DNA from: Bacteroides sp. An322
GTDB lineage: Bacteria > Bacteroidota > Bacteroidia > Bacteroidales > Bacteroidaceae
DNA: 64,000 nucleotides
Direction of reading: 5' to 3'
Assembly (NCBI RefSeq): GCF_002161765.1
Contig: NZ_NFIN01000015.1
Location: forward strand, 1-64,000
Positions within the stretch are counted from its first letter, which is position 1. The number at the start of each line of letters is the position of its first letter. The translations under genes were made by a program, and so were the position numbers. Shown here piece after piece: positions 30,364-34,764 of the stretch. The notes below the pieces were generated by a model. It had not been told where the DNA came from. It saw only the letters and a program-made list of their open reading frames with translations, and ran no database searches.

Positions 30364-30445
30364 AAACGCAGATTTTCGCAGATTCACGCAGATTGAATTA
30401 ATTATTTAAATTATAATTTGCGTGAATCTGCGGAAATCTGCGTTT
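30364..30445. repeat. Family B inverted repeat (CGCAGATT type), copy 1
   Basis: The 27-base arms (30364-30390 and 30419-30445) match at 26 of 27 positions; the left arm begins AAACGCAGATTTTCGCAG. The AT-rich loop is AATTAATTATTTAAATTA-like. It occupies part of the 429-bp gap between divergent GH97 and the DUF3836-like gene; the remainder of that gap is AT-rich and holds the regulatory sites at 30592-30671. Confidence 0.9.
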
Positions 30446-30591: not shown

Positions 30592-30606
30592 TATCGTTTT
30601 TCGATA
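30592..30606. promoter_or_regulatory. Palindromic operator, upstream copy
   Basis: TATCGTTTTTCGATA is an inverted repeat with 5-base arms (TATCG/CGATA) around a T5 centre. It lies about 18 bases upstream of the -33 element (TTTG at 30624-30627). A reverse-complement copy is at 30657. Confidence 0.75.
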
Positions 30607-30646
30607 AATTTTTCTCGAAAACCTTTGGTAGTATAAAAATAATGCC

Positions 30647-30655
30647 TACATTTGC
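30647..30655 (+). promoter_or_regulatory. Promoter of the DUF3836-CPBP-DUF2975 unit
   Basis: TACATTTGC (TAnnTTTG) lies with TTTG at 30624-30627 nineteen bases upstream, matching the Bacteroides -33/-7 spacing. The leader to the ATG at 30731 is about 70 bases. Confidence 0.75.
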
Positions 30656-30656
30656 A

Positions 30657-30671
30657 TATCGAAAAACGATA
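30657..30671. promoter_or_regulatory. Palindromic operator over the transcription start
   Basis: TATCGAAAAACGATA is the exact reverse complement of the site at 30592-30606. It begins 1 base after the -7 element, so a bound protein would cover the start point. A half-site TATCGA follows at 30678. The two centres are 65 bp apart, about six helical turns, which would suit looping or cooperative binding. Confidence 0.75.
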
Positions 30672-30730
30672 AATAATTATCGAAATAGAGAACAAAACCA
30701 GATTAATAAAAACATTAAAGACATACGATT

Positions 30731-31147
30731 ATGAAAAAGACATTTGTTATGAAAGCCATTGCCGCTATCTTTGCAACTACGATGATGAGTTTCACAACCG
30801 CTGCTGAAGCCAGTGCTCAAAACACCTTTGTTTACGGACAAGACGGAAACACGATGACTGTTTCTACCCTGAATGCCGACGGGCTTTCGATTACTCCGAA
30901 GCTGAAATACGAATACCAGTATGACGCCAATGGCAATCTTTTGGAAAAGAAGGCTTACCGCTGGAACAAGGACAACCGTTCATGGCAACCCGCTTACCTG
31001 CTGAATTACCTTCCGGGCGACGGCATTTATATGATTGACTATGCCGAATACGACAAGGCTTCGGGCGCGTTTACGCAAAACATCCAGACCAGCATCTATT
31101 ACCAGCAAGCCGAAAGCGACCTGTTATTAACCGAAGTTCAGAGATAA
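30731..31147 (+). CDS. Small secreted protein, DUF3836-like
   Basis: A 138-residue protein with a signal peptide of about 30 residues (KAIAAIFATTMMSFTTAAEASAQ split by its cleavage region near residue 30). The mature part contains KLKYEYQYDANGNLLEKKAY, a YD-repeat-like hairpin, then WNKDNRSWQPAYLL and a run of strands. This matches my memory of DUF3836, a small Bacteroides-restricted family without known function. It is the first gene behind the operator-flanked promoter. The CPBP protease gene starts 46 bases later with a strong Shine-Dalgarno sequence, so the two are likely cotranscribed. Confidence 0.72.
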   Translation: MKKTFVMKAIAAIFATTMMSFTTAAEASAQNTFVYGQDGNTMTVSTLNADGLSITPKLKYEYQYDANGNLLEKKAYRWNKDNRSWQPAYLLNYLPGDGIYMIDYAEYDKASGAFTQNIQTSIYYQQAESDLLLTEVQR

Positions 31148-31193: not shown

Positions 31194-32036
31194 ATGGGAC
31201 GTGTTATTAAACTTTTTATCTATTACCTGCTTTACACATTCGCTTTCTCCGGTATCTTTGCCGGAGGCTATATGATAGCCAACCACACACTGGAGTTCCC
31301 CCAATCCGATCCGGAAGTGTTCCAGCTCACCATGTGGGCGCAAGTACTCTCTACCATGGCGGTAGGTGCCCATTTGTTGGTTTGGAAATATGTAAAACGT
31401 GACCAATTATCTTTAAGCTTCCCCAATACGGCTAAGGTGTTGCTTGTCTCGGTTATCCTTATCGTAGGCATGGGGTTTTGGACAAATTATCTGACCGAAC
31501 TGACCGGATTGCCCAATACGATGGAAGAATTCTTTGCCCAAGCGATGAATAACCCGTTAGGCATCATCTCCATAGTAATAATGGCACCCATTGTAGAAGA
31601 ACTGCTGTTCCGCGGAGGAATGCAAGGGCACTTAATGCGTAAATGGAAGAATCCCGCATGGGCGATTTTGGCATCTGCCCTCATCTTCGGTCTCGTACAC
31701 GGTAATCCCGTACAGATGTTTTTCGCTTCCATTTTGGGATTGGTACTCGGCTGGGTATATTACCGCACGGGCAGCCTTCTTCCGGGTATATTGATGCACT
31801 TTATCAACAACGGTATGTCGGTGTTGCTTTTCCACCTCTCAGGCGGAAAAGACGAGACTATGACCGAAGCCTTGGGTACGACCGGAGCTATCAGCCTTGC
31901 TATCGTAGGCGTGGTATTGACCGTTTGGAGCATCTGGTACATCAAGACCCGCCTGATTCCGAATCAGATAGTATGGAAAGAAACACCCGCTCCGGTAGAA
32001 GAAGTGATTGTTTCAGAGGATAAAGAACAAGCATAA
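31194..32036 (+). CDS. CPBP-family intramembrane glutamic endopeptidase (CAAX protease-like)
   Basis: A 280-residue membrane protein with about seven to eight helices. The ABI/CPBP motifs are intact: EELLFRGGMQGHL (paired Glu and Arg), FGLVHGN (metal-binding His) and MHFINNGMS. Family members cleave prenylated or peptide substrates within the membrane, and in bacteria some act in bacteriocin maturation or immunity. The substrate here is unknown. It begins after AAAGGAGA (31178-31186), one of the few good ribosome-binding sites in the window. A family A repeat follows its stop, before the first DUF2975 gene. Confidence 0.92.
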   Translation: MGRVIKLFIYYLLYTFAFSGIFAGGYMIANHTLEFPQSDPEVFQLTMWAQVLSTMAVGAHLLVWKYVKRDQLSLSFPNTAKVLLVSVILIVGMGFWTNYLTELTGLPNTMEEFFAQAMNNPLGIISIVIMAPIVEELLFRGGMQGHLMRKWKNPAWAILASALIFGLVHGNPVQMFFASILGLVLGWVYYRTGSLLPGILMHFINNGMSVLLFHLSGGKDETMTEALGTTGAISLAIVGVVLTVWSIWYIKTRLIPNQIVWKETPAPVEEVIVSEDKEQA

Positions 32037-32045
32037 TTAACCAAC

Positions 32046-32116
32046 TGTAGGGGCGTGGTTTGTCCGCCCGTATGCATCTACGTAGATGTTTTGGGCGGGC
32101 AAACCCCGCCCCTACA
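32046..32116. repeat. Family A element, variant copy inside the putative operon
   Basis: A 71-bp variant whose arms read TGTAGGGGCGTGGTTTGTCC on the left and GGGCAAACCCCGCCCCTACA on the right. The centre is ATCTACGTAGAT, itself palindromic. It lies between the CPBP gene and the first DUF2975 gene and could form a transcript hairpin there. Confidence 0.85.
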
Positions 32117-32137
32117 AAAAATAGATTATATTCATTT

Positions 32138-32752
32138 ATGAAAACAGTACGCATTTTAGGGATTATCGTGATAGTGGCACTGATAGGGAACTTTATCAAA
32201 GATGCCATACCCGGATTCATAGACGGGTGGAACGATGCCGAAGCCGATTCTCAATTGGTTTTGCCTGCCGATTTCAATTCTGTATCCTTATCGGTAGAAG
32301 GTTATAAAGAAGGGATGTCTGATAGTCTGTTCAATCAGGCTATGCAGGCGAATGTTCCCTGCGAGGTGAACGGAGTAAGCACCTACGTGAAACATAATTC
32401 ATGGGTGCACGCCATGGGATTTGTTATCTTTCCTGTTACATTGCTCGTCTTTTATGGGATTTATTGCCTGATACGCCTGCTGGTAGCGGTGGGCAGGGGC
32501 GAGATTCTGATTCGGAAAAATATCCGCCGTTTGCGTTTCTTCATTTATCCGATAATGGCGTTTTCCGCCTTGTTCGAATTACAGAGTTATATCCTTTACC
32601 GGGCAGCCATGAACGAGTTGGTATCTTCCGATTACGCGTTCGATGAGTTCCATTTGAAATATTCGTGGACTTTCATGTTAGTGATTGCCCTCTTGACCGA
32701 GATTTTCGCCCAAGCGGTCCGCATTAAGGAAGAGAACGATTTAACCATATAA
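32138..32752 (+). CDS. DUF2975 membrane protein, copy 1
   Basis: A 204-residue inner-membrane protein with four predicted helices (~5-22, ~88-112, ~128-147, ~172-192) and a roughly 65-residue extracytoplasmic loop after the first. The start at 32138 (MKTVRILGII) is preferred; upstream in-frame codons lie within the family A repeat. GRGEILIRKNIRRLRFF is the conserved DUF2975 loop, and the protein ends RIKEENDLTI, a tail shared with the two other copies. DUF2975 proteins (YoaS-like) usually sit beside a YozG-type HTH regulator, as in this cluster. Function is unknown. Confidence 0.88.
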   Translation: MKTVRILGIIVIVALIGNFIKDAIPGFIDGWNDAEADSQLVLPADFNSVSLSVEGYKEGMSDSLFNQAMQANVPCEVNGVSTYVKHNSWVHAMGFVIFPVTLLVFYGIYCLIRLLVAVGRGEILIRKNIRRLRFFIYPIMAFSALFELQSYILYRAAMNELVSSDYAFDEFHLKYSWTFMLVIALLTEIFAQAVRIKEENDLTI

Positions 32753-32771: not shown

Positions 32772-33422
32772 ATGAAAAAGAGACTGAACCTTATTTGCTT
32801 AGGAGTTGTCATCTCCATTCTTATTTCCATGTCTTTAGTCTTTAATATGTTTTATTATGGCTTCAAAGCAGGAGTCGATGCATACGAACAAGGGAAAGCG
32901 GGTGTGGAAAAGCTTGACGTGACCTATAAACTGATTGGCACAATGCCGACCGATGTTATCACCAACGAAACCACTACAGCCATTAATACGAAAGACGGTT
33001 CTTCGGTTTCTATTCTTCCATTCATCAGCATGATAGGGATTCCGAATGAAAAAGCCGGTGCCACCGACTCTATATTCCTTTCTTTATTGGACTGGGTAGT
33101 GACAATATGCCTCATTTATGCCATAGTCCAGTTTGCCAAGATGATTCGGAATATTCACCGAAACATCATCTTCGATTGGGCGAACGTGAAACGCTTGCGC
33201 CGCTTGGGAATATCGCTTATCCTTAGCTTCTGTTGTTCAACGGCAATAATCGCCATTAACAATTACTTGGTTTCTCAAGTAATCAGCTTGAAAGACAGTT
33301 CTTTCTCTATCTCCTTCCAGCTTTCCGACCCGACACTGCTTATTGGCTTCACCGCTTTGCTGTTTGCCGAAATATTTGCAATCGGTTTGAAGATGAAAGA
33401 AGAGAATGATTTAACCATATAA
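32772..33422 (+). CDS. DUF2975 membrane protein, copy 2
   Basis: A 216-residue paralogue of the preceding gene: four helices, a longer extracytoplasmic loop (~25-95), the loop motif NIIFDWANVKRLRRLGISL and the tail KMKEENDLTI. ATG 32772 (MKKRLNLICLG) is chosen over a TTG 9 bases upstream. It lies 19 bases after copy 1, and its stop overlaps the start of the small membrane protein gene that follows, so coupled translation is likely. Confidence 0.87.
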   Translation: MKKRLNLICLGVVISILISMSLVFNMFYYGFKAGVDAYEQGKAGVEKLDVTYKLIGTMPTDVITNETTTAINTKDGSSVSILPFISMIGIPNEKAGATDSIFLSLLDWVVTICLIYAIVQFAKMIRNIHRNIIFDWANVKRLRRLGISLILSFCCSTAIIAINNYLVSQVISLKDSSFSISFQLSDPTLLIGFTALLFAEIFAIGLKMKEENDLTI

Positions 33423-33667
33423 TGCATGAGATTATGAATGTAAAGAAACTGAAATCCGCAATAGGAATTGTTGTCACTTGGGCGCTTTCCTTTATGCTTA
33501 TGGCAGGCTTTTATATACAATGTATCTTCTTGCCCTTTTTTCGGGGGACGGAGTATCAAGTATGGGGCATCCTGCTGGTAATCCCTTGGCTATACGCCAT
33601 ACAATATCTTTATTATAAACTAATCAAGCGTTATACCAAGTGGTGGGACGTTTGGAAAGAGAAATAA
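33422..33667 (+). CDS. Small two-helix membrane protein, copy 1
   Basis: An 81-residue protein with two hydrophobic helices (~13-35 and ~45-66) and a basic C terminus (YYKLIKRYTKWWDVWKEK). The ATG overlaps the stop codon of the DUF2975 gene by one base; a second ATG at 33434 is a possible alternative start. The 78-residue protein at 34310 has the same layout and the same YTKWW end, so each is paired with a DUF2975 gene. No known family is recognised. Confidence 0.75.
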   Translation: MHEIMNVKKLKSAIGIVVTWALSFMLMAGFYIQCIFLPFFRGTEYQVWGILLVIPWLYAIQYLYYKLIKRYTKWWDVWKEK

Positions 33668-33843: not shown

Positions 33844-34296
33844 ATGACAACAAAACCCGATAAACAATTGGTGCAATATAGCGAAGCATTGATGGTGCTT
33901 TCTATTTTTAGTGCAACGTTTTTTGGTATATCGAACCTTTTCCCTATCTGCTACGAGTTAGGAAAAGACGCAAGCGATACATTCATCTGGTTTGCCCTGG
34001 TGCAGGGCATAAAGGCATACGCAATGTTTTTCATCGCCGTCCTGACCTACTTTTTGGCACGCAATGTCCGCAAAGGTATTGTCTTTAGCCCGATTAACCA
34101 ACGTATTCTGTTTGCCATTGGAGGCTCAACCGTCATTTCCGGCGCGATTATTAATGCCATTATTAACTGTTCCTCCCTTGAGATGCCGACTGATACCAGT
34201 TTGTTGCTTATCATCATCGGATTGTTCATCGTTCTTGTTTCGTTGATGTTCAAGATTGGCATCCGAATGCAGGAGGAACAAGACTTAACCGTATAA
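33844..34296 (+). CDS. DUF2975 membrane protein, copy 3 (short)
   Basis: A 150-residue protein with four helices but without the large extracytoplasmic loop of copies 1 and 2. The conserved loop reads ARNVRKGIVFSPINQRIL, and the tail is RMQEEQDLTV, corresponding to KEENDLTI in the others. It lacks a signal peptide. A second small membrane protein gene follows after 13 bases and then the HTH gene, giving the classical DUF2975-YozG order. Confidence 0.87.
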   Translation: MTTKPDKQLVQYSEALMVLSIFSATFFGISNLFPICYELGKDASDTFIWFALVQGIKAYAMFFIAVLTYFLARNVRKGIVFSPINQRILFAIGGSTVISGAIINAIINCSSLEMPTDTSLLLIIIGLFIVLVSLMFKIGIRMQEEQDLTV

Positions 34297-34309: not shown

Positions 34310-34546
34310 ATGAAACCGAAAAGCAACTATACCCGAGTGATGGCAGGATTCTACATCTTCCTGTGTCTCATTGCCTCGCTGATTCTTGGCGAAATCATTT
34401 ATTTTGTAGCGATAGTCCCCTTGATATCCAATCATATTTGGCTCCCGTTCATCAATATCATTTGGATTTATATTGTCGCTGTGATTTATTATAAACTAAC
34501 CCGCCGTTATACCAAATGGTGGAAAAAACTGGAAAACAAACAATAA
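34310..34546 (+). CDS. Small two-helix membrane protein, copy 2
   Basis: A 78-residue protein with hydrophobic helices at ~11-35 and ~43-60 and the basic end YYKLTRRYTKWWKKLENKQ, closely matching the 81-residue protein at 33422. It lies between DUF2975 copy 3 and the HTH regulator gene, which starts 5 bases after its stop. Function is unknown. Tandem duplication of a DUF2975/small-protein pair is the simplest origin. Confidence 0.75.
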   Translation: MKPKSNYTRVMAGFYIFLCLIASLILGEIIYFVAIVPLISNHIWLPFINIIWIYIVAVIYYKLTRRYTKWWKKLENKQ

Positions 34547-34551
34547 CGCTT

Positions 34552-34764
34552 ATGCCGATTATAGTAAACCTTGACGTGATGATGGCGAAACGGAAAGTTT
34601 CGTTAGGAGAGCTTGCAGAGCGGGTGGACCTTACTCCGGCAAACCTTTCCATCCTGAAAACAGGAAAAGCCAAAGCGGTGCGCTTCTCTACCTTGGAAGC
34701 GATCTGCAAGGAACTGGATTGCCAGCCCGGCGACATACTGGAATACCAGGCGGAAGAAGAGTGA
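34552..34764 (+). CDS. YozG-like Xre/HTH_26 transcriptional regulator
   Basis: A 70-residue one-domain DNA-binding protein, MPIIVNLDVMMAKRKVSLGE onward. The helix-turn-helix is SLGELAERVDLTPANLSILK, and the closing motif ICKELDCQPGDILEY is diagnostic of the Cro/C1-type HTH_26 family. ATG 34552 is used; the longer reading from 34516 runs into the preceding gene. Such regulators are the standard partner of DUF2975 genes. It is the obvious candidate to bind the TATCGnnnnnCGATA palindromes at the front of the cluster, but this is inference. Confidence 0.9.
   Translation: MPIIVNLDVMMAKRKVSLGELAERVDLTPANLSILKTGKAKAVRFSTLEAICKELDCQPGDILEYQAEEE

Follow-up and report, generated by a model that had tools for sequence, protein, structure and literature searches.

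The window (the whole 64,000-nucleotide stretch of Bacteroides sp. An322 contig NZ_NFIN01000015.1 that was analysed) contains an operon for membrane proteins, which closes with the gene of a small helix-turn-helix (HTH) protein and is preceded by a promoter with palindromes on both sides (Table 1). The locus is a member of the DUF2975-HTH (YozG-like) operons, in which DUF2975 (PF11188) is followed by an HTH_26 gene in one operon, and the palindrome TATYG-N5-CRATA is also present upstream; unlike other such operons, the version here also encodes DUF3836, a CPBP protease and further copies of DUF2975. The second DUF2975 protein has four long helices in its AlphaFold model, and the DUF2975 fold gives only weak matches, to TARP/claudin four-helix proteins. 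A role in anti-phage defence was considered and rejected, PADLOC giving no match of weight. Two repeats were also observed: a long inverted repeat of CGCAGATT units at 30365-30445, between a GH97 gene and the operon (33 copies of this type of motif in the genome vs 0 for a reversed control), and a palindromic GGGGCG...CGCCCC repeat at 32047-32117, between the CPBP protease gene and the first DUF2975 gene (33 genome matches), which is a dispersed repeat within the operon.

Table 1. Promoter elements, putative operators and operon genes (positions in the window)
Feature	Position	Strand	Basis or remark
O1, putative strong operator TATCGTTTTTCGATA	30592-30606		immediately 5' of -33 element; read directly, kept in relatives
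O1+21, putative degenerate operator TCTCGAAAACCTTTG; its edge is the -33 element	30613-30627		sequence; +21 enrichment in all groups
-33 element TTTG	30624-30627	+	sequence; sigma-ABfr consensus (PMC7366714)
-7 box TACATTTG	30647-30654	+	19-base spacer from TTTG; consensus match
O2, putative strong operator TATCGAAAAACGATA	30657-30671		over inferred transcription start
O2+21, putative degenerate operator TATCGAAATAGAGAA	30678-30692		sequence; +21 enrichment; near-perfect copy in locus L055
DUF3836 protein, first operon gene here	30731-31147	+	PF12930, 1.9e-28; missing in many relatives
CPBP/Rce1-like intramembrane protease	31194-32036	+	PF02517, 1.8e-26
DUF2975 membrane protein 1, C-terminus EENDLTI	32138-32752	+	PF11188, 2.6e-16
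DUF2975 membrane protein 2, C-terminus EENDLTI	32772-33422	+	PF11188, 1e-20
Small ORF, hydrophobic make-up, without family match	33422-33667	+	
DUF2975 membrane protein 3, C-terminus EEQDLTV	33844-34296	+	PF11188, 7.1e-9
Small ORF, hydrophobic make-up, without family match	34310-34546	+	
HTH_26 (Cro/CI-type) regulator, 70 aa, CylR2-like predicted fold	34552-34764	+	PF13443, 1.8e-23; model; orthologues

TTTG/TAnnTTTG is the consensus of Bacteroides (sigma-ABfr) promoters (PMC7366714). Direct reading confirms the initial annotation in placing a TTTG and TACATTTG promoter with 19-base spacing between two 15-bp palindromes that are reverse complements of each other, with start-to-start spacing of 65 bp. 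The upstream palindrome lies 5' of the -33 element, and since O2 starts 2 bases past the -7 box it covers the inferred start point, as had been claimed. The TATCGA half-site reported at 30678 is present and belongs to the degenerate operator O2+21. The mirror-image arrangement, described as a feature in its own right, did not hold up: the arms themselves are palindromic, so the relation resides only in the T5 vs A5 centre, and some relatives have AAAAA, AATTT or AAATT at the middle of O1. Orientation was therefore rejected as a signal and is regarded as incidental. Across the 3.43-Mb genome the pattern TATCGN5CGATA has 5 copies, and its backwards reading has 2; of the 5, only O1 and O2 have an A/T-only centre; at this density, two perfect copies 65 bp apart are not expected by chance. 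Within the window O1 and O2 are the only perfect operator matches, and sites with at most 2 mismatches are near the shuffled level (36 observed vs 29 expected from shuffling). A wider regulon in the same genome was looked for and rejected on the basis of one among the relaxed sites, C27:17749, whose centre is also all T; it is likely due to chance because it lies inside a 1474-codon ORF.

The initial annotation had named lack of conservation of the motif upstream of orthologous clusters as one result that would refute its proposal, and this check left the proposal standing. Among 80 loci with HTH orthologues in Bacteroidota and Bacillota, TATYG-N5-CRATA was found upstream (within 4 kb) in 72 and downstream in 3, while arm gaps other than 5 bases were found in 0-3 loci. 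As a control, 59 permuted palindromes gave a mean of 2.6 upstream sites; two of them score 36 because the Y wildcard makes them read part of TATTG/CAATA sites. Most of the same-genus loci fetched have a pair of perfect sites with a spacing of 65 or 66 bp, while the first gene after the promoter varies, and most loci outside Bacteroidaceae are without a second strong site. Variants of the palindrome precede DUF2975-HTH in Peribacillus, Priestia, Paraclostridium and Parabacteroides plasmid copies.

Of 251 genomes of the family, 59 have an A/T-centred operator pair, and the HTH gene is present in 57 of these vs 32 of the other 192 (Fisher p about 1e-30, with genomes treated as independent, which overstates significance; pairs with G/C-rich centres were excluded by eye). 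Of the two pair-bearing genomes without the gene, one has its pair close to a contig end and the other has a 42-bp pair. Nearly all pairs in 30 fetched stretches, and pairs of every spacing class, run into the HTH operon. O1 and O2 are thus very probably binding sites of a small DNA-binding protein, kept across two phyla, and on this comparative evidence the pairing of the HTH regulator with the operator appears close to certain, in keeping with the earlier suggestion that the HTH protein binds these sites. The motif strings, or a paper describing the motif, were not found in the literature; neither was a published function or operator for DUF2975-HTH operons, DUF2975 being mentioned only incidentally, in two papers.

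Several further occurrences were recorded. An IMG/VR contig classed as viral (L151, about 5440 and 6001) carries an HTH orthologue of 74% identity with TATTGACAAACGATA upstream. A second, partial HTH paralogue (51% identity) is found in the Bacteroides sp. An322 genome itself (G000:C35:12676-12804, L063), with no operator nearby. In a same-genus relative (L051, G001:C2), the -33 element is parted from the -7 element, and O1 from O2, by an insertion of ∼1.6 kb that carries a 428-aa transposase-like ORF.

The HTH gene is the last in the operon, as had been stated, and encodes 70 residues from ATG 34552, a start backed by homologues. The AlphaFold model (pLDDT 80.6, moderate confidence) shows a five-helix HTH protein with a small sheet formed from both termini (strands E3-5 and E63-65), which is the CylR2-like arrangement. 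The top Foldseek matches are CylR2 structures (2xiu, 1utx; TM 0.77-0.83), with VanU(G) lower. By sequence, phmmer against PDB gives VanU(G) as the best match (3tyr, E 4e-4) and CylR2 as a weak one; the NCBIfam VanU model gives E 3e-6 and 27.3 bits, far below its cut-off of 150.

Weaker copies of the operator accompany the strong sites at a fixed distance. A weight matrix built from 172 sites was scored at all offsets from strong sites and peaks exactly at -21 and +21, both in Bacteroidota single-site loci (z 4.5 and 4.4) and in Bacillota (6.7 and 4.5); the +21 offset, taken from O1 or O2, is likewise prominent in the doublet groups. Among the Bacillota loci, 11/17 at -21 and 8/17 at +21 match 7 of 10 arm letters, vs 0.26 on average and at most 2 at offsets elsewhere. 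The DNA around these degenerate sites is A/T-rich, and Bacteroidota also give scores at +24 and +27, two offsets that overlap the -7 box; in Bacillota no other offset comes near the ±21 score. L055 has a near-perfect O2+21 copy (TATCGAAAAACGAGA), and the -35 box sequence TTGACA of Clostridia falls within the +21 copy. For many Bacteroidota, the -33 TTG may itself be supplied by the strong site, through its TATTG arm.

Start-to-start spacings of the promoter pairs fall at 31-35, 41-43, 54-56, 65-66 and 75-77 bp, with 57-64 and 67-74 empty; two Clostridia have a spacing of 21, and a single spacing of 90 is associated with a short spacer duplication. The best period is ∼11.0 bp (R 0.86 when each genus contributes one value, a level reached in 0 of 20,000 uniform draws; p = 0.02 from class centres only), statistics that are overstated in that they take genera as independent. 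The whole-turn spacing proposed from the single promoter is thus borne out in relatives. The spacings are quantised because each site stands at steps of about one turn from the -33 and -7 elements: O2 starts 10-11 or 21 bp from the start of the -7 box in all scored cases but one, and the end of the -33 TTG is 5, 24-26 or 34-37 bp from the start of O1, regardless of the other site. Where there is a single strong site, the distance from its start to the start of a downstream -7 box is 24, 44-46, 55 or 65 bp; otherwise the box starts 10-11 bp before the site does. Since single sites keep the same steps to the -7 box, the register is to the promoter.

The initial annotation interpreted the two palindromes as sites for a dimeric repressor with looping, in which the dimers bound at O1 and O2 would touch across the promoter and enclose a DNA loop of about six turns. 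Its operator component stands. Pairs of strong sites at 54-56, 65-66 or 75-77 bp, in one-turn steps with the intermediate spacings empty, are what a loop would favor, and 65/11 is close to six turns; however, looping alone does not predict a register to the promoter, and it is not specifically supported, because the register to the -7 box is the same in promoters that have a single strong site. In addition, 1-bp changes in spacing go with the -33/-7 spacer or the TTG position, without compensation, the 70-aa protein has no separate tetramerisation domain, and the second strong site is missing from most loci outside Bacteroidaceae. The ±21 bp neighbours of strong sites fit side-by-side cooperative binding equally well or better. 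Looping as the explanation of the arrangement is therefore unlikely; dimers bound cooperatively along one face are the likelier arrangement, and both may act.

Our preferred reading, which we consider probable, is that O1 and O2 are operators of the CylR2-like regulator of the same operon, acting by cooperative same-face autorepression that DUF2975 probably relieves. In this scheme, an HTH dimer would bind TATYG-N5-CRATA, and further dimers, positioned on the same DNA face, would cooperatively occupy the weaker copies at 21 bp. Protein would thereby line the promoter, with O1+21 placing it on the -33 element and O2 and O2+21 placing it on the start point, and its own operon would be switched off. 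Autorepression is likely from the positions of the sites, since those over the -33, -35 or start are at places blocking RNA polymerase. An HTH protein acting as an activator, or as a λ CI-like dual regulator that contacts RNA polymerase from O1 while O2 serves as a brake at high level, would account for the phasing of sites to the promoter, and some loci, including those of the Alistipes type, have a strong site only upstream of the -33, where an activator could also sit. This is improbable, as O2 covers the start point in the window and a single site covers the -33 in many Bacteroidota. Even less probable is that the palindromes bind another regulator and are linked to the HTH gene by neighbourhood only: HTH conservation is unusually high (about 75-94% identity over Bacteroidota and Bacillota) while other genes vary, the operator pairs track HTH presence genome by genome, and in locus L183, which has no DUF2975, the pair lies immediately 5' of the HTH gene itself. 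Chance palindromes in A/T-rich intergenic DNA, or a transcript-level hairpin, can be dismissed, since chance is refuted by the conservation of the sites, and O1, being upstream of the start point, cannot pair with O2 in the mRNA.

Relief of autorepression in the preferred reading is assigned to the membrane proteins. In 72/77 loci, the HTH gene is preceded, at no more than 1.5 kb, by a gene whose product ends in an ENDLTI-type tail, and the C-terminal tail, carried by all three copies in the window, is the best conserved part of the DUF2975 alignment. At least one DUF2975 protein would probably remove the repressor via this EENDLTI tail, presumably on the cytosolic side, in response to a signal that may be an envelope disturbance; release would then raise the levels of DUF2975 proteins, the CPBP protease and the regulator itself. 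We regard DUF2975 antagonism of the repressor as a reasoned proposal, evenly balanced, and a few loci (L143, L183) that pair the HTH protein with flotillin-like genes, not DUF2975, count against the preferred reading. In these loci, HTH and operator adjoin flotillin/SPFH genes (L183:6524-9152, L143:4624-5988), which suggests a wider role in membrane maintenance.

Among known systems, CylR2 of the Enterococcus faecalis cytolysin operon is a repressor that is reported to leave its operator on a membrane-received signal, being displaced via the membrane protein CylR1 (PMC5454873). The locus resembles CylR2/CylR1 in having a gene for a 66-70 aa HTH protein, here a putative repressor, encoded with a candidate membrane partner, and in CylR2 being the top structural match of the HTH model. 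It differs in that identity is only 26-27%, the proposed partner is DUF2975, cytolysin-type genes are missing (DUF2975, CPBP, DUF3836 and small ORFs are found instead), and several operators are placed at helical steps and spread over two phyla. VanU(G), the regulator of the vanG operon, is the closest PDB protein by sequence, but the HTH protein falls below the family cut-off and its operon is without van genes. In SdpR/SdpI of Bacillus subtilis, a membrane protein captures the autorepressor encoded in its operon; SdpR belongs to the ArsR type, and the likeness is to the general scheme only (autorepressor and membrane partner).

This analysis shows that motif and regulator are paired, that strong sites have neighbours at 21 bp, that site placement keeps a helical register and that the tail is conserved. 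New here are the degenerate copies at 21 bp, the quantised O1-O2 spacings and the EENDLTI-tailed DUF2975 before the HTH gene. More tentatively, the locus may represent a widespread membrane-coupled autorepressor with a tandem 21-bp operator lattice on the RNA polymerase face, whose promoters in two phyla evolve by whole helical turns only and whose release occurs via the seven-residue DUF2975 tail. The quantisation by helical turns emerged solely from comparing natural promoters and is an unusual case of a phasing rule recorded in nature. As a contact between membrane protein and repressor, the conserved EENDLTI tail is a short candidate. Membrane-protein operons in gut Bacteroidota and in Bacillota thus gain an operator code, a named regulator and a candidate partner, and the operator rule predicts how many unstudied operons are switched.
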